Virus record (IMG/VR): IMGVR_UViG_3300024946_000004
Coordinates: 1-34,227 of that record
DNA: 34,227 bases
Reading direction: 5' to 3' (one strand)
Source of the DNA: a virus
The translations under genes were made by a program, and so were the position numbers. Of this stretch, positions 2,190-33,872 are shown piece after piece. The notes beneath the pieces were generated by a model. That model was not told the origin of the DNA. It searched no databases and saw only the letters and a list, made by a program, of their open reading frames with translations. Every line of letters starts with the position of its first letter. Positions within the stretch are counted from its first letter, which is position 1.

Positions 2190-5100
2190 TTATGGGTTAG
2201 TTATTTCTGGCTTAACTGTCTGATTGAACTCCGTCATGATTAGCGTGATTTGTTCATCAACCAATTTAACCTCTTCTCTATTTGCGCCTTCTTTAACTAG
2301 ATCGCGCTTGTAATCTCGTAGTTTTGAAATTGCGCTTTGTGCTTTTTTACCGTAATCCACATAATTCAACTCTGGATTCTCGTTTAAAAACTCGTCAGCG
2401 TCCTTACCATCTTTCAATCGCCCAAGATAACCAGCCTCTAGTTTATTCAGTTTGATTAGATTATTGTAGAACTTACCAGCTTGAGGCGCTTGCCCTGCAC
2501 TGTTACCCACAAATCGACCAACCAAAGGTATTTTGTAAGTTGGCAGATCTTCACCTGTCACGATAGATTCTATAGTGTTCACCGTTTTTACCACCTCACG
2601 ACCAACACCGCCAGTTAACTGACCTGTTAAATATTCAATCTGGTCGCCTGTCGGACTTAATTGGCCTTTTTCGTAATCATCACCGCCTGATAAGTTATTG
2701 ATCCAGCGTGCAAGCTCGATACTTAACTCAGTTGCTTTGTCGCGTGTGCGAGTGTAGCCAGGTGTAGGTCTAAGATTGCTAAAATCTTCTTGTGCGATAT
2801 TGCGACCTGTCCAATCTTCATTTTTAGATAAGTCATTAAACGGATCTGCTACTGTTGGCATAATGATTGAATCAATCCTACCATTACCGCCTAGTGGGTT
2901 GAATGATTCCATGACTGCGCCAAATATATCAAACACGCGCTCAGTTGTGTTTTCTGCACCAGATAATAGCCACTCTGTTGTAATGCGCCCAAAGTTTGGC
3001 AACACATTAAAACCTAGCGGCATTGGAATTGTGATGTACTTTTGATCAGTGTTAGGAATTGGAATAATAAAGTTACTAGAACGCACAAACTCTGGCGGCT
3101 CATCTTCATCAAATCCAGCCATTGCCAACATCAGCGCTTGTGCTACACCGATTGATATACCGCCTGCAATAATCTGTTTACCTTTAGGACCTGTTAGCGT
3201 TTCACCAATACGTGCGGTACCTTGCACTGCCGCATTGAAGAATGCATACCAAGCGCCCATTGTTCTAGTCGCAGTGCCTTTTCGGTTAAAGTTTACCGTG
3301 AGGTTTTTTCCGATACTTGCCGCTTGTTGCTTACTGATTCCGCTATCAATTGCCACTTTATAAGCAGCTAAACGCACTGCGTTTTCAAGTGTCTGGTTGT
3401 AGTCAGATAACCAATAAAAGATAGGCTTGATGAGTTTATCGTTGAGTGCTGTTTCTGGCACGGCTAGCACACCGCCTACCGTTACCACTTTACCTGCAAG
3501 TGTTTTAGTCCACCAATTAGGGTCAAGTGCTTTTGATACTGCCTTTGTACGCTCTTCTGCATTCGCATACATATCTCTAAAGCCAGTTGTGCCACCTTCG
3601 CGTTGGTATTCCTCCCATAATGCACGCATCTCTTGTGCTTTTGATTTCTGTGCTTCAGTAAATGAACCAAACTGCATTGGCGATTTAATGCCGTTATCAG
3701 TTCTAGTTTCAGCATAAATGCCACGTAGCGCAGGCATGATATTGGCCAGAACTTCTTTCTGTTTGCCGGCAATCTCAGTGGTGCTTAAGTTAAGCATTGC
3801 GCCTTGCGTATCGCGCGTAATGTTCACGATGCCGAAGATTGGGTTGTATTGCGTATTAATGCTTGAGAAGTAGCGCGTAATATTGCCCATAAAGTTACTG
3901 ACGGCACTCACCTGGTCAACATCTAAGTTATTTAAACTAAGTGCCATTTTCATCGCACGATCATTAAACTCATTAAACGTTACGCTACGCTCTTCAATTT
4001 CACCACGCTTATTAACGATACGCGCAACGATGACATTGTTGCGGTTTTTATAGCTTGGATCTGTGCGAGTTTCAACAAGGCCTGTTGCTTTGCTTACATG
4101 GCGAATAGTAGGCGGTGTTTCAACATTCCAAAACTCTTCATTTGGATTAAGTTTAGCTAATCCAATCATTGCAGTAGCAACACGATTCTTTTCACCACGA
4201 ACGACATTCTTTTCATATTGCTGCGCAATGTTAGCAATTACATCAACCACGGCACGATTAGAACCCATTGCACGTTTAGAGCTATTGCCTTTCACTTTAA
4301 AGCCTGAACCGGTGCCGTTACCTGTGCCACGTTCCATATCTTCACGCATCAGCGGCACGTAGAACTGATAAGCTGATTGCCATGCATTCACGATTGATTG
4401 TGATTCAAGTCCGTAATCAACTAATACTTGGCGAGATTTAGCAGTAATTGCATCAATGCGTTTTGCCAGTGCTTCGTATTTACGTTTATCTGCTGGATCT
4501 AAAGCCGCCATGTAACTATTTGCTTCTGCAGTCGTAACACCTGCGCCACCGTCTTGCATATCAGGATTGATAGTTGCAATCTGTTTGTTACGCTCTGGCG
4601 CGTGGCGCATCCACAAATACTCTTCAAAGTCAGCCATGCCAACACCGCGCATACGCATATCTTCAATGAGTGGCGTTAAGTCTTGTTTTATAAAGTCTTG
4701 AACTCGTTTAGCAGAACGTCCGTGGTAAAGCTCTTCTTGCAGGTAGGCGTTCCAACGGTCTGCAATGTTGGTACCGGATTTTTTGATTTCCTGAGTGACA
4801 CGTTTTAAGTCAATGTATTTATCTTGCAGAGCACGGATAACATTATCCATTTTGCTAGATTCATCAACCTGCCATTGAGGCGTTAGGCTTGCTTGAGGTG
4901 ACTGTTTGCTGCGTGAATACATCACGCCTTGCAATGCAGGTGCTAGTCCGCGATTCTGTAGCTCGCGCACATATGAACCCAATAACTCTGTCCGCTCTTC
5001 GCTGCTCTGTTTCCGTAGAAAGGTATTGTAGAAAGCTGCTCTCTTTGCCGTGCGGATTCCTGCGCGATAAGGATTGCTCGTTTCAGTGGTGTTGACGGTA

Positions 5101-8100
5101 GCATCTTGTGAACTTCCATCAATAATTCTTGATCCACTGACTCTATCTGTTCTTGCGTAATAGTTGGATAACACGCGCTCAAAGTCATCATCGGTAAATT
5201 GCTCACCGCTGATGGTTGTAAAGCCTTGTGTTGTTGGGTTAAAGATAACATTTTTAAGTTCTGGCAAATTGGTAATTGCACCGTGATAAACAGTATAAAT
5301 CAGTTCTTTAATGTTGTGTGCATCATTACCTTTTTTCCAATCAATCTTACGCACAGCCTCGCCAAAGTCTTTTGTTTTTTCATCGAATGAATAGTACAAA
5401 TCTGGGTCAGTTTGCGCGACATGTGGCTCGATATGTTTAGTGGTACCGTACTTTAATGCGCTTGATAGCATATTTTCAGCACGGCGGTAGAAAGCCTTAG
5501 CAGTTAAACCAAGTGGGTCACCAATAAATACTTTGTCATTGTTGTATGCATAAGCTGCAGCTAGTGAGTAAATACGGGTCCCAAAGTCTGCGCCAGAGCG
5601 TAAGCGAGATACGTTAATCCAAACCTCATTGCCTTTTTCATAGATAACGGCTGAGCGATATTTAGCGTTTGGTAAAAACACCTCCCAAGCGGTATCAGCA
5701 CCATCTAGTTTTGTTTGTGACTTACCAAATGGTTCAACACGGAATTGCGTGTTCATATCGCTGGCAATATCGGCAATTTCTTTTGCATCAGATGGGGCGT
5801 TCTCAAAGAAATCTTCGTTTCTTGCGGTGAACTCAAGCGCGGCGGTTAAGAATGTGTCACCGTCTGCTTTGGATGGTACGCGATTGTTGCGGCTGTAATA
5901 CATATCTTTGTTTGAGATAAGGCTTACAACATCCTCACCCTTAGCATAACGTGAAGCCATTGAAACAATATCTCTCACATCAACATCAGTCATCTCAACA
6001 TCAAATACCAGCTTTGCAAATGCCTTGATTCCATCAATTAAGCGTTGCCATATTGACCTAGCAACTGGCGACATTTCAACATCTTGATCACCACGTTCAG
6101 CGATAAAAGCCAAAACCTCACCGGCCATTGCATTGTCGTCAATATCCGGCTGCGATTCTTTAACATCATCCCAAATGCCGCGAATGTACTTATTGCCTGA
6201 TTTGTTCAAGGTTTTAATTTGCGTAAGCAATTTAGGAAATAAAGTTTTATCAACTTCATTTAGCATGCTCTCAACCGACATATGCCCGATTGCCTCATGC
6301 GCAAACACTTCTCTTAAGCGCTCCTCGCTGTTAATTGCATTGGTGTTAATCCATATTTCACCATTTGAATACAGGCCTTCCACGTCATTAATTCTTACGC
6401 TCAATGCGGCCTGAATGTTTTGTTCGCTAGGTAACTGAGTGACCAACTCTAAGCGCTCAATTAGTAGCTGTTCACTGCCGTTAATTTCCTCAATAATGCT
6501 AGAAGGAATTGGCAGTTTAGAATGATGGTCAACTAACTTTACCTTAGGTATGCCTTTGTGTGACTTCTGCAGTTCATCGATAATCGACTGTGCTTTATCT
6601 TTGTCCATTCCTCGGTATGGGGTTGCATTACTGCGGCTAAACATCACCACATTGCCGCTGTCTGATTCTTTTGTCTGAATCTCACCAAACAGGTTATCAA
6701 ACGCCTCTGCTACTGGTGCAACCTCTTCATCCAACAAATAGGGGAATCGTGAACTATCACGGTTAAATGAATCTACGCGCACTACGTTTGCAAGGTAGTC
6801 ATTATCATACCCATTCAACTGCATCTTATGGATAACGTAGTTTTCAAATGCTCTCGCACCAAGCTCTATAATTCTTGACCAATAGCCATCTGTGCCTTCT
6901 TTTACACCGTCAATGCTTCTAGCACGTTGCTTCATTGGTGAAGTGTTAAGTGCATCCACCAAGTCAGCAAATCTAACCTCAACCTCAGGCCTTACGCCTT
7001 GAGGATGTTTCGGATCGATAATCCAATTCTCTTCGCTCCAATACTTGCTGTTAGGGCTTTGTTTGCGATAACGCTCAAGCTCTGCTTTTGTGATTCCTTT
7101 ATTGCCATAATTTTTATTTATGTACAAAGCTTCTGGCTTGTAAGTAATGTAGTTACCTTCACGGTAGGCTTGCTGGCTTTTGACCTCTGCCATTGACTTT
7201 TCACCACCGCGCTTACGTGAAAAGTAATTATCCAAAGCATGGAACCACTCATGCGCTAAAGTGCCAGCGCCTTGCGTCTTTGTAAGATTGATAACTAAAT
7301 TGCCTGGCTCAAAATGTGCGGCGGCACTACCCTTGCCTCGCGCACCGAATGAAAGCCCCAGTGTGCCTTCTAATGACATTGCTTTAGGCGGTACACCTAC
7401 TATGTTAGCCAAGTCCATTAAAGCATCGTAGGCGGCGTTTAGCGCACCTTGTCGGTCATTATCTTTACCGCCTTGCTTTACCCATTCGCCAAATTGAATA
7501 CCCCTAAAGCCAAATGTAGTTGCGAACTCTTCTGAGCTTACATCTTTACCTTTGCGATAATCTTCACCTGTGCGCGGTCTGTTTTCTTTACCACGAACAT
7601 CTGATTCTTTAACATTCAATCGGTCTTTTGTGGCATCCCATGCGGCAACTACTTCATCGTAGTTATTGCGTAAAAATTCAAATGCCTCTTTTGAGCTATC
7701 AAAATCCTTAAGCTTGGTGTAGTTTTTATCGCCTTTCTTGTTGATAAAGTAACCGCCTTTTGATGAGCCACGCACCTCAAACGCCATGCGCTTCTCTTGC
7801 TTTTCCTTGCCAAGTTTCTCGTTTACATTATCAATTACATCGGCAACACTTGAGGCTTCGTAGGTTGTAGTTACGCCATCAACATCAATACGCACCATCG
7901 GTTTAATTTGTTTTACACCATCAACGTAACTGTAAGCATTAGGGTACTCTTCAACCTTACCAATGCGCTTCCATGCGTCACGATCAATCGCCTCAAGCAA
8001 TGCAACTTTAGATTTAAACTGGCCTAGTTGAGCATCTTTGATTTTCTGCAACATTAGCTCTGGGTTTACTTCAAGCGCCTTGCTTACAATCCTGCCTATA

Positions 8101-11100
8101 TCACGAAGTGTTTTTACCTTGCCTACCCAAACTTTAAGCGCATAAGGCTTACGTGGTTTAGATGGGATTTCCTCTCTGGCCGTCCATGCAATTGCTGCGG
8201 CAGTTTTATTATCGATTAAATTAACATCGGTAATGGGCCATATCTTACTGAGTGGCAATGAGGCTAGTTCATCGTCTGAGTATTCCTTAGCCATTGCACG
8301 CACCATATCTTTACGTGCACCTTCTAGCTTCTCGCCAAAGTCATCTACATTGCCTTTAGGTTTCTGTGCAGCTGGTTCACCATAAGCATCAGCCACCTCA
8401 TCAGCCGTGACTTTACCTTCGCGCACATCCTTGATAGTGTCGAGCTTCTCTTTGCCTTTAACTCCTGCGGCGGTGAGTGCTTCTGCGGCTTTGTCCACTT
8501 CGTCTTGATGTTTTGGCTTTGTATCAACCATTTTCGCATCGTCACGAAAAAGGTCTTGCGCACCGGCTGCGGCGGCAATATCTGCTTCACTGTTTGAACC
8601 AGTTAGAGTGAATGTGTCTTGATTGTCGTTGCCAGAATTGCGCTTAGCGTCTTTCGCACGCTCTGCATCTGCAATGGCTTGTTTGGCGGTAGTATTTTCG
8701 CCTAGTAGGTCGGTGTCTTGCTTAGCTGTTCCTACTTCCGCTTGCTTACCGGCGTTAGTTTCTGCTGCGCTTTCTTCTCTTTCACCGCTAGCAACATCGC
8801 TATTTGTGCGTCCTTGCTCAACGTTTTCAATCTCGCTATTGCTTCCTGCGCTTTCTTGCTCTTGTTCGTCAAGTCCACTTCCGTAATAGGCGCTTTCGGT
8901 ACCGTTTTCTCTTTCGTCATATCCAGCCTCCTGTAGTAGTTTGTTTACTTCTTCATCGCTAATTTCGGCAATTGAAACTATGTCATCCTGTGCACTTTCG
9001 TTTTCATAGAACCGGCTTGCTTCAATCTCTTGCTGCGTGTCATAAGGCAATACTGATTCACCGTTACGGATTTTGTCAGCAAGGTAATCATACGCCTCTG
9101 TTGAATCAAAAGCATCATCATTAGCACCGTTAGATTCAAGGCGCATGTTATATGGTAAGTAGTCGTCTAAATCACCTGATTCAATCAAGACTTTAAGTGA
9201 ACGGTTGTTATCTTTTTTGAATATCTGATTGTAGCCACCTGGTGCAAAGCCTTTATCCTCGCCTGTAACATCGCGTTTTTCAGATAAAGAAACGCCGCCT
9301 AATTCGCGTAATGTAGCCAGTAGCGTTTTAGGCTTGTATTGTTTAGGTGCTTTAGGCTTAGTAGATTTGGCTGGCTTTGATTTAGCAGCCTCTTGATACA
9401 AGTCATCTATTAAAAAGCTGATTGTTTGAGACTTCCCCTTGAACAAATCTGCAAGTGTCTTGAGTTTTTCCGCTGATACAGCCTTGCCATTTTGCATTTT
9501 ATTGGCTAAATCAAGACCACTATTCAAGCCATCTTCTAGGTTCAATGCTTTAGCGGTCTTGCGTTGCTTCATTAGGCTTGCAATAACATCGCTCACTACG
9601 CTGCTGGCTTGCTTTGATGATACGGTAGTAGTATCAGTTGATACAGTCTCGTTATCTGACAATGCTCCCGTAGCTTTTCCGTTTTCGGATGTTGAAGCGC
9701 CACTCTCAACCGTTGAGCTAGGGAACTCTTTAACATCGTTAAGAAGCTGAGCAATAGGCGCATTCAAGCGAATAACATCAACGTTATCGCCCTTATTTAA
9801 TTTTGATAGCCATTGATGATGGCCGTCTAATACGTGGTTATCAGCTGATACCAAGATTGAACGGTCACCGCCTGCAAACTTGCTTGCTTTCTTAACCTTA
9901 GCCTCTGAAAACTCCTGCTGTGTTGGCTTAAGTGATGATGCCGGTACCGTTTCTTGCGTATGGTCCACGCCTCTAGCATTAAGAAAGTTAACCATCGCGC
10001 CACGGTGCTCTGCTTTAACCTGTGGCATTTCTGCGCGTGGAATATTTAATGTGCCAGATTCAGGACTAAATGCAGTCCACTCTTTATCAATCTTCTGGCC
10101 TGCCACTTGCACCTGCGCTCTTTGACTAGCCAAAGGTGTTTCTGGAATATTTTGTGGTTCGTTTTGTTGTTGAGGCTTTATTTTAAATAAACGCTCAAAT
10201 AATTCTGGCGCGTCACGGCCTGCATATTCAACCGCTTTGTCGCGCATCGCTTCAATAACTTCTGATTCATTCCAACCCTGCTCTTTTGAGTAGGCTAAAG
10301 CATTTTTAATAGACACAAACTCTGGTGAACCTTCAAAGCCGGGCTTGTCAATGTCGCGCATTTTTAGCGCAATAGAATTGCCTAGCGCCTGTGGTGTTGA
10401 TTCATCAAAGTTTGTTATTGCATTTGCATATTGGTCTATTTTTTCAACATTTACACCTTTAAATGCAGATGATTCATTCTCCATCTCGCCTGTCGCATTG
10501 CTTTCAAACCATTTATCAATTTTTCGTTGCGGCCAGTTAATCGCTTCATTAGCAATGTTATCGCCTGCGTACTTTCTAATTACAGCTAAATCCAACTGCT
10601 TATTTTTAGCCATGCCATCTTCACGCGCTTGTTGAAGCTGCTCATAGCTCATTGTTGAATAATCTGGCTCAATTAGTGCATCGTCAGGCTGACTTCCATT
10701 TCCAGCAGGAATATCACTTGCAACGCTCTCTCGATTGATGGATGGTTCATCTGCGTTAATTCCGTCACTTGTAGCAACTGCGCTTCCTGCTGCGTTATCA
10801 AGTTCATTCGTAACGGTTCCGCTATCCACCATTCCAGTGGCTCCAAGTACGTCTGCGCTGACATTATCATCCCCTAGTATGTCGCTAGCTGGTATGGCTT
10901 CTTGTGCTGAGATTGTGTTAAGTAACCCATTAGGTTTTGTGAAAGGAATATCAATTGCTTTTTCAGCAAGCGCAATAGCGTCATCAATACTTGCATCTGG
11001 ATTAGTAATATTGGCAAGCGCAGTGTCTGCCTCGTCTTGCTTTGCTTGGTCTTGCTTCTGCTGTTGTGATGCATTAAATGCAGCTAACAACTGAGCGTCT

Positions 11101-12242
11101 ATTTCATCTGCTTCTGCTGTGCCAACAGGTGCATCAAGTTTTTTTGCAATATTAGTTAAAACTGCACCGCCTGCGCTCATGCCGCCAGATTGTAAAATGG
11201 TAGCTAATGCAGTATCTTTTACAGCCTTTTTATAGTCGTCAAACGTGGCATCTTGATTTAGGCCAATCTCTGGCGTTTTATCAACGAGGAATTGAAGTGT
11301 TGTTGTTAGCTCTTCTGCTGGCAGTTCTTTTAGACTGCTTTCAAGCATTGCAGCACCTAAGTCCGCTATGCCATTGCCTTGCGTAGCCTTACGCAACCCT
11401 TTAGCTACCTTATCAAAGCCACCTAGCTTTTCGCCTACAACCTCTGCACCTGCCATAGGGATGGCGCGTGTTGCTGATTGCAAAGGGCTTAAATCTCTCT
11501 CTCTACCTTCGTTATACTCTTGCAGGGCAACGCCACCGAATAAAGCAGGCAATGCAGAGCCTCCACTAGCGGCGCCTACGCCAAGTGCTGGCGCTGTTTG
11601 TATAACAGATGAAATTGCGTTAGCGCCGGCCTCCGGCAAGTCTTGAACAATCGATTCTTTTGCAAATCCTTCTACAGGCTTGCCACGCAATACTGCACGG
11701 TTCTCAACTTTATCAGCGTAGCGATTTTGTCCTTCTGCTAACTTGGCTAGCGTTTCAGAGTTTGTTAGGTCTGCAACTGACTTTAAAAAACCAGCCTCTA
11801 TTTTACCTAACCCAGCATAGCCACGATTTAAGCCAACTTTAGCAACACCTGAAATACCATCAACAACTTCTGCACCTTCTTCAAGCACGTTCTGTTTTTT
11901 GTTCTTGTCAATAGCTTTTTTGAATGATTTTGCTGCGGCCTGATCTGGCTTAACTTCTTTGCCATCCATGCCATCAACCACTGACTTGGTGCGCAATTCG
12001 TCTGCAATGGCTAAAGGTAATCTAATCGCATTGTCTTTAATGTAGTCAGCCGCATCTTTTGCTGTATTGATTACCCTGTCTGAAAATGATTTTGATTTTT
12101 CAGGTGTGACTTTAGAGGTCTCTTGACTAGAAAAATCCGCATCTATCTGATCCGCAATTGAAGGCATTGCTTGCGATATTTCAGCCTCGCTCATGCCTTC
12201 TGGGAATGTGATTGATTTACCGCGATATACTACGTTAGTCAT
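2190..12242 (-). CDS. giant polyvalent protein with ParB-like, LPD and two zincin peptidase modules
   Basis: A 3350-residue protein, the last gene of the late operon. Visible parts: an N-terminal FPEGMSEAEI motif as in many ejected phage proteins; a Gly/Ala-rich hydrophobic stretch about residues 205-260; a ParB-like nucleotide-binding motif (VLDGHH, DGHH at 806-809); an LPD5-like segment from about 1580 (FGFRGIQFGEW) leading to a zincin active site HEWFH at 1664-1668; a second zincin motif HEAIGH at 1982-1987; a DPLGL segment near 2244 resembling another polyvalent-associated domain; and a C-terminal LPD38-like region around 2950-3250 (NFNRKG, WYAFFNAAVQG). This matches the polyvalent proteins described for phages and conjugative elements, thought to enter the host with the DNA and counter defences or process other proteins. 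Its own late-type promoter precedes it. Individual substrates are unknown; no RNA polymerase motifs were seen. Confidence 0.85.
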   Translation of the reverse strand: MTNVVYRGKSITFPEGMSEAEISQAMPSIADQIDADFSSQETSKVTPEKSKSFSDRVINTAKDAADYIKDNAIRLPLAIADELRTKSVVDGMDGKEVKPDQAAAKSFKKAIDKNKKQNVLEEGAEVVDGISGVAKVGLNRGYAGLGKIEAGFLKSVADLTNSETLAKLAEGQNRYADKVENRAVLRGKPVEGFAKESIVQDLPEAGANAISSVIQTAPALGVGAASGGSALPALFGGVALQEYNEGRERDLSPLQSATRAIPMAGAEVVGEKLGGFDKVAKGLRKATQGNGIADLGAAMLESSLKELPAEELTTTLQFLVDKTPEIGLNQDATFDDYKKAVKDTALATILQSGGMSAGGAVLTNIAKKLDAPVGTAEADEIDAQLLAAFNASQQQKQDQAKQDEADTALANITNPDASIDDAIALAEKAIDIPFTKPNGLLNTISAQEAIPASDILGDDNVSADVLGATGMVDSGTVTNELDNAAGSAVATSDGINADEPSINRESVASDIPAGNGSQPDDALIEPDYSTMSYEQLQQAREDGMAKNKQLDLAVIRKYAGDNIANEAINWPQRKIDKWFESNATGEMENESSAFKGVNVEKIDQYANAITNFDESTPQALGNSIALKMRDIDKPGFEGSPEFVSIKNALAYSKEQGWNESEVIEAMRDKAVEYAGRDAPELFERLFKIKPQQQNEPQNIPETPLASQRAQVQVAGQKIDKEWTAFSPESGTLNIPRAEMPQVKAEHRGAMVNFLNARGVDHTQETVPASSLKPTQQEFSEAKVKKASKFAGGDRSILVSADNHVLDGHHQWLSKLNKGDNVDVIRLNAPIAQLLNDVKEFPSSTVESGASTSENGKATGALSDNETVSTDTTTVSSKQASSVVSDVIASLMKQRKTAKALNLEDGLNSGLDLANKMQNGKAVSAEKLKTLADLFKGKSQTISFLIDDLYQEAAKSKPAKSTKPKAPKQYKPKTLLATLRELGGVSLSEKRDVTGEDKGFAPGGYNQIFKKDNNRSLKVLIESGDLDDYLPYNMRLESNGANDDAFDSTEAYDYLADKIRNGESVLPYDTQQEIEASRFYENESAQDDIVSIAEISDEEVNKLLQEAGYDERENGTESAYYGSGLDEQEQESAGSNSEIENVEQGRTNSDVASGEREESAAETNAGKQAEVGTAKQDTDLLGENTTAKQAIADAERAKDAKRNSGNDNQDTFTLTGSNSEADIAAAAGAQDLFRDDAKMVDTKPKHQDEVDKAAEALTAAGVKGKEKLDTIKDVREGKVTADEVADAYGEPAAQKPKGNVDDFGEKLEGARKDMVRAMAKEYSDDELASLPLSKIWPITDVNLIDNKTAAAIAWTAREEIPSKPRKPYALKVWVGKVKTLRDIGRIVSKALEVNPELMLQKIKDAQLGQFKSKVALLEAIDRDAWKRIGKVEEYPNAYSYVDGVKQIKPMVRIDVDGVTTTYEASSVADVIDNVNEKLGKEKQEKRMAFEVRGSSKGGYFINKKGDKNYTKLKDFDSSKEAFEFLRNNYDEVVAAWDATKDRLNVKESDVRGKENRPRTGEDYRKGKDVSSEEFATTFGFRGIQFGEWVKQGGKDNDRQGALNAAYDALMDLANIVGVPPKAMSLEGTLGLSFGARGKGSAAAHFEPGNLVINLTKTQGAGTLAHEWFHALDNYFSRKRGGEKSMAEVKSQQAYREGNYITYKPEALYINKNYGNKGITKAELERYRKQSPNSKYWSEENWIIDPKHPQGVRPEVEVRFADLVDALNTSPMKQRARSIDGVKEGTDGYWSRIIELGARAFENYVIHKMQLNGYDNDYLANVVRVDSFNRDSSRFPYLLDEEVAPVAEAFDNLFGEIQTKESDSGNVVMFSRSNATPYRGMDKDKAQSIIDELQKSHKGIPKVKLVDHHSKLPIPSSIIEEINGSEQLLIERLELVTQLPSEQNIQAALSVRINDVEGLYSNGEIWINTNAINSEERLREVFAHEAIGHMSVESMLNEVDKTLFPKLLTQIKTLNKSGNKYIRGIWDDVKESQPDIDDNAMAGEVLAFIAERGDQDVEMSPVARSIWQRLIDGIKAFAKLVFDVEMTDVDVRDIVSMASRYAKGEDVVSLISNKDMYYSRNNRVPSKADGDTFLTAALEFTARNEDFFENAPSDAKEIADIASDMNTQFRVEPFGKSQTKLDGADTAWEVFLPNAKYRSAVIYEKGNEVWINVSRLRSGADFGTRIYSLAAAYAYNNDKVFIGDPLGLTAKAFYRRAENMLSSALKYGTTKHIEPHVAQTDPDLYYSFDEKTKDFGEAVRKIDWKKGNDAHNIKELIYTVYHGAITNLPELKNVIFNPTTQGFTTISGEQFTDDDFERVLSNYYARTDRVSGSRIIDGSSQDATVNTTETSNPYRAGIRTAKRAAFYNTFLRKQSSEERTELLGSYVRELQNRGLAPALQGVMYSRSKQSPQASLTPQWQVDESSKMDNVIRALQDKYIDLKRVTQEIKKSGTNIADRWNAYLQEELYHGRSAKRVQDFIKQDLTPLIEDMRMRGVGMADFEEYLWMRHAPERNKQIATINPDMQDGGAGVTTAEANSYMAALDPADKRKYEALAKRIDAITAKSRQVLVDYGLESQSIVNAWQSAYQFYVPLMREDMERGTGNGTGSGFKVKGNSSKRAMGSNRAVVDVIANIAQQYEKNVVRGEKNRVATAMIGLAKLNPNEEFWNVETPPTIRHVSKATGLVETRTDPSYKNRNNVIVARIVNKRGEIEERSVTFNEFNDRAMKMALSLNNLDVDQVSAVSNFMGNITRYFSSINTQYNPIFGIVNITRDTQGAMLNLSTTEIAGKQKEVLANIMPALRGIYAETRTDNGIKSPMQFGSFTEAQKSKAQEMRALWEEYQREGGTTGFRDMYANAEERTKAVSKALDPNWWTKTLAGKVVTVGGVLAVPETALNDKLIKPIFYWLSDYNQTLENAVRLAAYKVAIDSGISKQQAASIGKNLTVNFNRKGTATRTMGAWYAFFNAAVQGTARIGETLTGPKGKQIIAGGISIGVAQALMLAMAGFDEDEPPEFVRSSNFIIPIPNTDQKYITIPMPLGFNVLPNFGRITTEWLLSGAENTTERVFDIFGAVMESFNPLGGNGRIDSIIMPTVADPFNDLSKNEDWTGRNIAQEDFSNLRPTPGYTRTRDKATELSIELARWINNLSGGDDYEKGQLSPTGDQIEYLTGQLTGGVGREVVKTVNTIESIVTGEDLPTYKIPLVGRFVGNSAGQAPQAGKFYNNLIKLNKLEAGYLGRLKDGKDADEFLNENPELNYVDYGKKAQSAISKLRDYKRDLVKEGANREEVKLVDEQITLIMTEFNQTVKPEITNP

Positions 12243-32066: not shown

Positions 32067-32099
32067 GGTAATACTCCGTAAATGAATTTATTTACAGAA

Positions 32100-32124
32100 A
32101 AGATAACAGTGTCCATGTGTGTGA
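32100..32124 (-). promoter_or_regulatory. late-promoter-like element P5 (portal block)
   Basis: Minus strand: box TCACACACATGGA, then -10-like TATCTT (32100-32105) at the same distance as the other copies. It follows the terminator at 32131-32158 and gives about 27 nt of leader before the ATG at 32066. Confidence 0.55.
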
Positions 32125-32130
32125 CAGACG

Positions 32131-32158
32131 TAAAAAAGCCCACGGCTTAGGTGGGCTT
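32131..32158 (-). terminator. intrinsic terminator ending the structured RNA
   Basis: Minus strand AGCCCAC, loop CTAAGCC, GTGGGCT, then a six-T run: a perfect 7-bp stem. It lies 2 nt from the end of the closing stem of the structured RNA and directly before promoter element P5. Confidence 0.9.
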
Positions 32159-32160
32159 GG

Positions 32161-32291
32161 TTGTTAGTGTTCCAGTGCTGATCTCTGGAATGGCAAACGA
32201 GGGATTTCAACCCACGGCGCCTCACCCAACGTTCTTTGCCAGAACCGGCTACGGCACCAACTGCGGATCAGCCTCCGCATCACACTAACAA
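32161..32291 (-). ncRNA. structured non-coding RNA, multi-branched, no family recognised
   Basis: About 130 nt closed by a perfect 10-bp helix (32161-32170 with 32282-32291). Inside are a 5-6 bp hairpin (32171-32175/32185-32189), a 7-bp stem (32191-32197/32235-32241) and a 6-bp hairpin (32262-32267/32274-32279, loop of 6). A further possible 3-bp hairpin lies at 32245-32254. Coding is unlikely; the minus strand ends in a strong terminator, giving the orientation. Within the 7-bp stem the minus strand holds GGGTTGAAATCCC, which resembles a T-arm, but the domain is too short for a tRNA. Strand assignment and function are inferred. Confidence 0.55.
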
Positions 32292-32293
32292 GT

Positions 32294-32378
32294 TATGGTT
32301 ATTCTAGGACTTTTATCACCTGTGCCCATTAGGTGGCACGCCAAATCCCGTTGTCCTTCCGCTAGTGGAATAACCATA
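32294..32378 (-). repeat. long-range 11-bp inverted repeat next to the RNA domain
   Basis: tatggttattc (32294-32304) and gaataaccata (32368-32378) pair perfectly. They enclose nested pairs aggac/gtcct (32306-32310/32353-32357) and cacct/aggtg (32318-32322/32331-32335). It could be a second RNA domain stacked on the first (2-nt gap) or a DNA-level operator; the nesting favours RNA. Confidence 0.55.
32302..32329 (-). promoter_or_regulatory. possible variant late-promoter element P6 for the ncRNA
   Basis: Minus strand GGGCACAGGTGA (shared core CACAGGTG at 32318-32325), then TAGAAT at 32302-32307, two bases further away than in the other five copies. The predicted start near 32295 is just before the closing stem of the ncRNA. 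Weak and possibly chance, since the bases are also in the inverted repeat. Confidence 0.3.
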
Positions 32379-32520
32379 CTTCTTAATGCAATTACAAGTT
32401 AATTTTAACCTGCCATTCTCTGCGCGTATATATTTACTAATGATAAATTGGTAACAAAATATTGTTATAACAAGTCTATTACCAATTAGTTTAAACATAT
32501 CAATACCCCATCTCATTTAT

Positions 32521-32850
32521 TTACAAAGCCCAATTTGGCTTATGTTCACTAAAAGCTAAAAAAACGTTCATATTTGTGTTTCGTTTTTTAAAATTCCATA
32601 AACTTGGAACAACTTGCAAATTTTCAGCAACGTGTAATCCACAAGCTAATTTGTGAAATATTGGTACTATATGATCTATATTCCATTTGTAACCGGTATA
32701 TTTTTCTCTCAATCTACATAATTCAACAGCCTCTTTAAAAACAAAATCATTTAACTCTGACTGATTTGCATTAATGATGTTTGATTTTCGTCTGTGTGAG
32801 TATTTTAATGACGAAAGCCTTCTACATTTAATTTTTTCATCATTATTCAT
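32521..32850 (-). CDS. HNH homing-type endonuclease (C-terminal half)
   Basis: A 109-residue protein with an HNH nuclease motif of the WNIDHIVPI...GLHVAENLQVV...NFKK type. Visible key residues are D59-H60, H73, N77 and N86. This family cleaves DNA as free-standing homing endonucleases common in phages. An N-terminal zinc finger usually belongs to the same chain; here it is a separate gene 6 nt upstream, so the pair may be a split endonuclease. The region is clearly more AT-rich than neighbouring structural genes, a sign of recent transfer. AGGT lies before the ATG at 32850. Activity untested. Confidence 0.75.
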   Translation of the reverse strand: MNNDEKIKCRRLSSLKYSHRRKSNIINANQSELNDFVFKEAVELCRLREKYTGYKWNIDHIVPIFHKLACGLHVAENLQVVPSLWNFKKRNTNMNVFLAFSEHKPNWAL

Positions 32851-32856
32851 TTTTAC

Positions 32857-33090
32857 CTAAATTCCATCTACTTTTCTTGCTTTAGTTATTACTCTTGTAC
32901 CAAGTTCTAATTCTCTTGCATATCGTTGTTCACGGTCTAATTTTTTACCTTTTTTCTCTCGCCATTTTCTTACATCATCAACTGCGCACTTTGCACATTT
33001 ATTTAATCTTCCATCTTTCATTTTCTTATGGGAATGAAAGTTACTTAATTCTTTTATCTCACCGCACTTAATACATTTTTTATCTACCAT
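32857..33090 (-). CDS. zinc-finger protein, likely DNA-binding half of the HNH endonuclease
   Basis: A 77-residue protein with two CxxC pairs (C6/C9 and C32/C35) in the CIKCGEIKELSNFHSHKKMK layout typical of the zinc finger that leads phage HNH endonucleases, followed by a basic helix (RKWREKKGKKLDREQRYARE). The ATG at 33090 overlaps the end of the large-terminase gene, so its translation is coupled to it. It probably binds DNA for the HNH protein encoded 6 nt downstream. A single stop and short spacer separate the two, leaving open a split ancestral gene. Confidence 0.65.
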   Translation of the reverse strand: MVDKKCIKCGEIKELSNFHSHKKMKDGRLNKCAKCAVDDVRKWREKKGKKLDREQRYARELELGTRVITKARKVDGI

Positions 33091-33872
33091 CCCATTTCCC
33101 CATCTAAAGCTCTAAATCCAGCAGAAGGCGCGGTGCGTTTAGGTGTGTTTAGTTTAGCAAAACGAAGCATCATGACCGCATATCTAACCGCACTCAAAAT
33201 ATCATCAAACTCTTTAACTATTTTACCATCCTTGCGATGATACAAGCGGTACTCTTCAAAGTAACCGTCCAAATGTGCGAACACTTTAAACCGCCCTGTT
33301 TGCATACGGTCTAATATTTCAAGCACACCTGCCTCAACGCCATTACCGCCGGTGCCTTCTTCTTCACCTTTTTGTGGTGGGTGAGTTGCTTTATCCTTAA
33401 GCATATTCACGCCTAAGTTGCGGTACTGTTGCGCAATTGCTTCGCCAGAACCTTTGTCGTGCTGCAATCCATCATGAGGCCATGCAACAGGAATCCATTT
33501 ACCTCTAGCGTTGATTGAAACAGAGTGCACTGCTGGTGTTTGTTCGCTTAGCCGGTGAATGTCATACACATAAACAATATCAGCATCCCTATCCCAAGCC
33601 AACCAACCGCCTGCAGTCGGGTGATCCCAGCCAAAGTCTAAACCTGCAATGCGTGGCCAGTGCGCAGGAATTGAGAAAGGCTGCACCTTAACCAACTCTT
33701 CATCCATTGTAAAAATGCGTCCTGAACCTAACACTGGAATTCCCCTTGATCGTGCATCACGTAAATGCGATGGCGTTGAATATAACAATTCTCTTTTAGT
33801 TTTCTCGCTGAGGTGAGGTACATCATTCCAACCAGCCATCACCAAATATTTTGATTCTGATACTTTAGGCAT
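33084..33872 (-). CDS. terminase large subunit, nuclease-domain part
   Basis: A 262-residue protein matching the C-terminal portion of podovirus large terminase: linker (KYLVMAGWNDVPHLSEKTKR, RDARSRGIPVLGSG), then an RNase-H-like nuclease with D79 (IAGLDFGWD) and the closing D223-D224 (EFDDILSAVRY). The nuclease cuts concatemeric DNA at packaging start and end. It begins with ATG at 33872 that overlaps the stop of the ATPase ORF as TAATG, and the two ORFs differ by one frame at the ATPase-nuclease linker. Either the gene is split and translated by reinitiation or a one-base indel is present. It is followed by the zinc-finger gene. Confidence 0.85.
   Translation of the reverse strand: MPKVSESKYLVMAGWNDVPHLSEKTKRELLYSTPSHLRDARSRGIPVLGSGRIFTMDEELVKVQPFSIPAHWPRIAGLDFGWDHPTAGGWLAWDRDADIVYVYDIHRLSEQTPAVHSVSINARGKWIPVAWPHDGLQHDKGSGEAIAQQYRNLGVNMLKDKATHPPQKGEEEGTGGNGVEAGVLEILDRMQTGRFKVFAHLDGYFEEYRLYHRKDGKIVKEFDDILSAVRYAVMMLRFAKLNTPKRTAPSAGFRALDGEMGW

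Follow-up and report, generated by a model that had tools for sequence, protein, structure and literature searches.

A stretch of the minus strand in a viral DNA is almost certainly a real folded RNA. It belongs to a large and widely distributed family of RNA modules in phages. The window, that is, the whole stretch of DNA that we analysed (34,227 nucleotides), comes from a virus record. A sequence-only reading had proposed a new structured phage RNA at this place; covariation, model matches and the lack of an Rfam family strongly support this proposal. The minus-strand gene order in the window is terminase, two HNH/endonuclease VII-like half-genes, the RNA, a terminator, a 79-amino-acid gene (32066-31827) and the portal gene (31817-29598). 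Thus, the RNA has the HNH half-genes (32850-32521) on one side and the 79-amino-acid gene and portal on the other, as had been described.

On the minus strand, positions 32291-32282 (TTGTTAGTGT) pair perfectly with positions 32170-32161 (ACACTAACAA) over 10 bp. The helix that was claimed to close a domain of 131 nt (32161-32291) is therefore present in the sequence. Folded alone, the 131 nt reached -52.8 kcal/mol, whereas shuffled versions averaged -40.5 (z = -3.40), and one of 200 dinucleotide shuffles was as good. When the domain and the terminator were folded together, the z value was -3.31 and none of 200 shuffles was as good. This domain (domain B) is the core module. Its score with model R1 (73 bits, E = 1e-17 and 1.5e-16) is high by construction, because the window sequence sat in the training alignment of the model. 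The closing helix P1 (5′ arm, 32282-32291; 3′ arm, 32161-32170) encloses the P2 hairpin (TGCGGA-GGCTGA-TCCGCA, 32262-32279), a hypervariable insert (32190-32261) and the P5 hairpin (TCCAG-AGATCAGCA-CTGGA, 32171-32189), all on the minus strand. In the window copy, the insert is predicted to form two hairpins, GGUGCC/GGCGCC at 32258-32216 and GGGUUGAAAUCCC at 32213-32201.

The family was assembled from relatives of the window phage, which were collected via the portal protein; among these the RNA is optional. In one portal relative (L012), a diverged copy of the RNA shows compensatory changes, and two of its loop sequences are conserved. Patterns built on these loops led to copies in further phages. 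A relaxed loop pattern, which fixed just the loops and a few flanking bases, gave at least 120 stretches on viral contigs. In our reading of the model search, the module is present in 99 of the 100 relaxed-pattern loci searched, the exception being L058. Homologs occur in more than 100 phage contigs. We aligned 58 distinct copies. Paired cells amounted to 93.6% against 75.9% in shuffles, a percentage that is inflated because the copies were prefiltered for P1 and P5 pairing, and double-change cells numbered 244 against 73 in shuffles. The unfiltered loop-pattern result (99/100) and alignment A2, which consists of model-found copies and is itself fitted to the model, agree with the filtered alignment. 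In P1, both sides have changed in all ten pairs across the 58 homologs, and the stems of P2 and P5 also covary. The compensatory change that the sequence-only reading had proposed to look for among homologs is thus extensive.

The consensus order of the module is P1, P2, insert, P5 and P1′, and its length is 110-145 nt. P1 has about 10 bp and is free in sequence. The P2 consensus is AAUGCGC-AGGCUGAU-GCGCA and the P5 consensus is GCCGG-AGAUCAGCA-CCGGC. The insert between P2 and P5 is mostly about 30-90 nt long and cannot be aligned across the family. It is not a strongly structured RNA in its own right (mean z = -0.24), nor is it a coding sequence, since the insert lengths fall in all three remainders.

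Several other matches in the searches were set aside. A first, overly strict pattern found no match on genome contigs; the relaxed pattern gave mostly chance matches there, and a minority were real prophage copies. Of five viral matches from a 17-mer scan of the T-loop, four have just that short stretch in common. Matches in Gamaleyavirus and Escherichia phages were rejected because they are confined to the terminator stretch (query 353-390). In L039, a tandem pair of degenerate module copies is seen at 9236-9507. Three contigs (L033, L034 and L037) show a possible third domain, closed by ACATAT/ATATGT, 3′ of the module; in L037 this domain directly follows domain A (described below) and the module is absent.

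The loops of P2 and P5 form a kissing helix of 5-6 bp, as judged from compensated sequence changes. The P2 loop GCUGAU (32272-32267) is complementary to the P5 loop AUCAGC (32182-32177; both minus strand). Because both loops are nearly invariant, this complementarity alone proves nothing. In L101, a model match, both loops are altered in concert. We then scanned viral contigs with two changes imposed on the first loop and two bases left free in the second. All 12 contigs obtained, from at least three sequence backgrounds, had GUCGAU/AUCGAC, in which the second loop is exactly complementary to the first. When one change was forced in a second scan, three contigs from two backgrounds were obtained, all with GCCGAU/AUCGGC. 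Since 15 of 15 forced-change contigs carry exactly the compensated partner, the two loops pair, although the 15 contigs do not represent 15 independent events because many are close relatives. The pairing may occur within one molecule or between two. The links to P1 are very short and, therefore, a stacked rod within one molecule looks strained.

Upstream of the core module lies domain A (32294-32389, minus strand), which begins with a conserved GCAUUAAGAAG and is conserved together with the core module. It forms a helix of 14 pairs, fully paired in six homologs, and two of the pairs are doubly changed. Its closing helix pairs 32378-32368 with 32304-32294, and AAG/CUU extends the helix across the start of P1. 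A comparable helix is visible 5′ of many other module copies; in only 48 of 121, however, it beat all 20 shuffles. A 66-amino-acid ORF (32316-32516, minus strand) overlaps this region. Its first 47 residues resemble a small ORF of L012; beyond them the frame continues into the conserved 5′ part of domain A, which would fit an insertion of the RNA into the ORF at its 3′ end. In phage lambda (L326, NC_001416), the late leader between Q and S contains, at about 44.78-44.95 kb, a domain A-like stretch and a differently filled, P1-closed hairpin (GTTGTGCTG..CAGCACAAC), both identified by sequence match and fold only.

The sequence-only reading regarded the 131-nt domain as a small RNA with its own terminator and a product of about 165 nt. 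This description holds in part. An intrinsic terminator (AAGCCCACCTAAGCCGTGGGCTT and a T tract, 32131-32158, minus strand) was found by terminator scan and starts 2 nt past the closing helix, as claimed. However, phages with an 85%-identical portal (L009 and relatives) keep the terminator and the 79-amino-acid gene without the RNA, and several homologs run directly into a ribosome-binding site. For these reasons the terminator stands outside the RNA family; from such comparisons we assign it to the phage late region. Moreover, the domain does not stand alone but is a module in a longer modular RNA, in which domain A (32389-32294) precedes it. Domain A and the pairing of the two outer hairpin loops were absent from the earlier description.

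The neighbouring genes have several features of their own. The terminase large subunit is split at 33872 (minus strand) with an ATGA overlap into an N-terminal Terminase_6N ORF and a C-terminal Terminase_6C ORF, and the two-part terminase is also found in relatives such as L009 and L014. The HNH/endonuclease VII-like gene (32521-33090, minus strand) is split into a 77-amino-acid zinc-finger-like half and a 109-amino-acid half; in L026 both halves are conserved side by side. Between the terminator and the 79-amino-acid gene lies a ACACATGGACACTGTTATC-like motif (32085-32122, minus strand), which recurs in diverged form past terminators in L012, L013 and L026 and is possibly a phage-specific promoter. 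No second copy of the motif was found in the window. A single ORF of 3,350 amino acids (2190-12242, minus strand) occupies almost one third of the window.

Model R1, a new covariance model, matches phages mEp460, P1 (two copies), ep3, T751 and IME207, and by its matches the family ranges over lambdoid phages, Klebsiella phages and gammaproteobacterial prophages. With the seed genome counted, the module is present in 7 of 119 Enterobacteriaceae genomes and 6 of 398 Pseudomonadota genomes, and one bacterial genome has seven copies. None of 199 Bacillota genomes, a set without a positive control, matched the model. Among 5,426 complete E. coli genomes, one allele was matched in 840 and the 5′ half in 1,256. 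Prophages in at least one sixth of E. coli genomes carry the module.

The RNA family is apparently new. The sequence-only reading had recognised no Rfam family in it, and none reaches its gathering score in the 34-kb window. A gathering scan with Rfam 15 over the window and ten homolog loci gave only tRNA, C4 and isrK, all at other positions. E-value scans of the window region and an E. coli leader gave only Trp_leader, which was rejected because its score (22.7 bits) is below the cut-off of 41 and the match rests largely on the terminator hairpin. We found no description of the RNA in the literature by sequence string and terms, in a search that covered sources other than subscription journals. 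Tests with model R1 set it apart from put and from the T4 stable RNAs. Structured phage RNAs of unknown function as such are an already known kind. In the purine riboswitch, a closing helix holds two hairpins with interacting loops. The module differs from it in having 5-6 Watson-Crick loop-loop pairs and a long insert between the hairpins, and in lacking an Rfam match.

The structure of the module rests on comparative evidence; what it does, we infer. We tentatively favour, by analogy and at somewhat less than an even chance, that the module is a leader RNA which acts in cis on transcription, in the manner of put though without homology to it. The module would lie within a phage transcript leader and would fold while RNA polymerase makes it. 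The folded module would modify the transcription complex, or dock a factor that does, and transcription would then read through the terminators that separate phage operons. In the window, the terminase/HNH unit would be coupled in this way to the 79-amino-acid/portal unit through the terminator at 32158-32136.

The positions of the copies are consistent with action in cis. Copies occupy noncoding gaps before terminase, lysis (endolysin), replication, recombination and other genes. Promoters with at least 10 of 12 consensus bases within 600 nt were found upstream of 19 of 108 copies and downstream of 3 of 115. Terminators within 350 nt downstream are enriched (46/120 against about 12.5% expected). 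In E. coli prophages, the pL leader that separates the repressor from the yfdP operon is taken up by the module. In one such prophage (L323), a promoter and an operator-like palindrome end about 10 nt before P1, which would place the RNA start at P1, about +1 of pL. In L322, the module is located between Q and the holin gene, which is a late-leader position. The pL slot also points to a role in cis. At L317, L319 and L327-L332, three alternative RNA alleles share one slot, which is bounded by the pL region and the yfdP terminator. In SfV and six further E. coli loci, this slot holds, before the same terminator, one of two differently filled alleles with the same P1-type closure. All eight loci read (8/8) held one of the three P1-closed alleles; in these loci the slot was thus never empty, while its content is exchanged. 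The flank with the yfdP terminator is present in 2,827 of 5,426 E. coli genomes, some of the matches being short. The SfV leader holds a variant module; SfV orf33 was considered as a replacement of N and rejected, as it encodes an acidic-looking protein of no known family. In a search for long antisense targets of one allele from E. coli, blastn against E. coli genomes and phages gave essentially copies of the element itself; short antisense targets may exist.

The closest known parallel is HK022. Its putL and putR RNAs bring about processive antitermination as RNA alone, through the zinc-binding domain of RNA polymerase, at the same place as the module (PMC9378689). In put, two stem-loops stand where the pL transcript begins; the module likewise has two stem-loops and is found in a lambdoid pL leader upstream of terminators. 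However, put RNA is about 70 nt and is described without a closing helix or insert (PMC9378689), whereas the module has both, and antitermination is ascribed to the module by analogy. No homology to put was found; in the HK022 genome, the best match of model R1 was not significant (E = 0.14) and lay outside an early leader. The put-like early position applies to the E. coli prophage copies, whereas the window copy lies in the late region. Other observations fit action in cis less well. Close relatives of the window lack the RNA, although their terminator and gene order are the same. No good promoter for the window RNA was found close upstream or elsewhere in the window, the best having 9 of 12 consensus bases. 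The hypervariable insert would not be needed by a plain antiterminator. Terminators are also enriched upstream (32/116), and some copies precede opposite-strand ORFs, most of which belong to no known family.

The kissing loops suggest another function, which by analogy is a serious possibility and almost as likely as a cis-acting leader: the module may be a trans-acting, self-assembling noncoding RNA, an accessory RNA gene of phages. The loops would pair between copies to form a dimer or ring, with the frame as scaffold and the swappable insert as the specificity part, similar to GOLLD and ROOL or to phi29 prohead RNA. The loop pairing is conserved and both loops change together within one RNA, and the strain that the short P1 links would impose on an intramolecular rod also fits pairing between molecules. 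Promoter-RNA-terminator units are seen in several prophages, and inserts and whole alleles are exchanged. The phi29 prohead RNA forms a ring. Like it, the module resembles a three-way junction with two complementary loops, and the window copy lies among packaging genes; however, there is no Rfam match and most module copies are outside packaging regions. In GOLLD and ROOL, kissing loops join separate molecules (PMC12286853). The module shares with them an origin in phages and prophages, a conserved and a variable part, an occasional location near tRNA genes, and conserved kissing loops, here seen as three compensated loop pairs. In contrast, it is much shorter (110-145 nt), has another architecture and is often an operon leader, and the homo-oligomer is a trait of GOLLD and ROOL. 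The Rfam models of GOLLD and ROOL matched nothing in the window, the ten homolog loci or the E. coli leader.

Proximity to tRNA genes also bears on a trans-acting RNA. Eleven of 141 copies lie within 1 kb of a tRNA against 4.6 expected (the maximum of 200 random placements was 10), and all 11 are on the same strand. The association is nevertheless weak overall, and because only a minority of copies are near tRNAs, we rejected the idea that the module is a tRNA-cluster RNA. T4 rnaC and rnaD are likewise phage RNAs of similar size adjoining tRNA genes; model R1 found no match to them in the T4 tRNA region (69000-74500). In Klebsiella phage T751 (L284), 3.3 kb without annotated genes (2894-6231) contains the module and ends at a tRNA cluster; this region may hold further structured RNAs. 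Against a trans-acting RNA, several copies are plain 5′ leaders right before a start codon, and many copies have no terminator of their own.

It is unlikely that the module serves to protect an mRNA end from RNases, whether early transcripts at their 5′ end or, in the window copy, the terminase transcript at its 3′ end. The module is at or near the transcript 5′ end in L323 and in L325, where it reaches the start codon almost directly, and it lies directly before a terminator in the window and L012. However, simple hairpins would suffice for protection, without three compensated loop versions, a conserved frame and exchangeable alleles. An element that works as DNA is very improbable, whether as a mobile repeat or as a hairpin of single-stranded DNA that serves recombination or packaging: modules and inserts are indeed exchanged between phages and the inverted repeats are present in the DNA too, but the orientation tracks promoters and terminators, the first ORF downstream runs in the direction of the module in 38 of 45 cases, and no fixed partner gene was found among the neighbours scanned. 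A chance fold or assembly artefact, to which the modest z of single-sequence folding might point, is hardly credible, being contradicted by covariation that extends over dozens of unrelated contigs and over the complete genomes of named phages.

We consider it conceivable, though doubtful, that the modules form a new class of self-assembling phage RNA, in which a fixed kissing-loop frame carries hypervariable, exchangeable inserts, stands in regulated phage leaders and acts as an RNA-based specificity system; such a system might serve phage-phage competition, counter-defence or allele-specific control of transcription. The family is common, in P1, relatives of lambda, Klebsiella phages and hundreds of E. 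coli prophages, yet it stands outside Rfam. Thus, phages that have been studied well contain a basic part that had escaped notice. If the module is a cis-acting antiterminator, control of RNA polymerase by RNA alone would not be a peculiarity of HK022-type phages but general. Self-assembly, if it occurs, would make the module a compact counterpart to GOLLD and ROOL in laboratory E. coli phages. In either case, experiments in P1 or an E. coli prophage can directly test the role of the leader RNAs.
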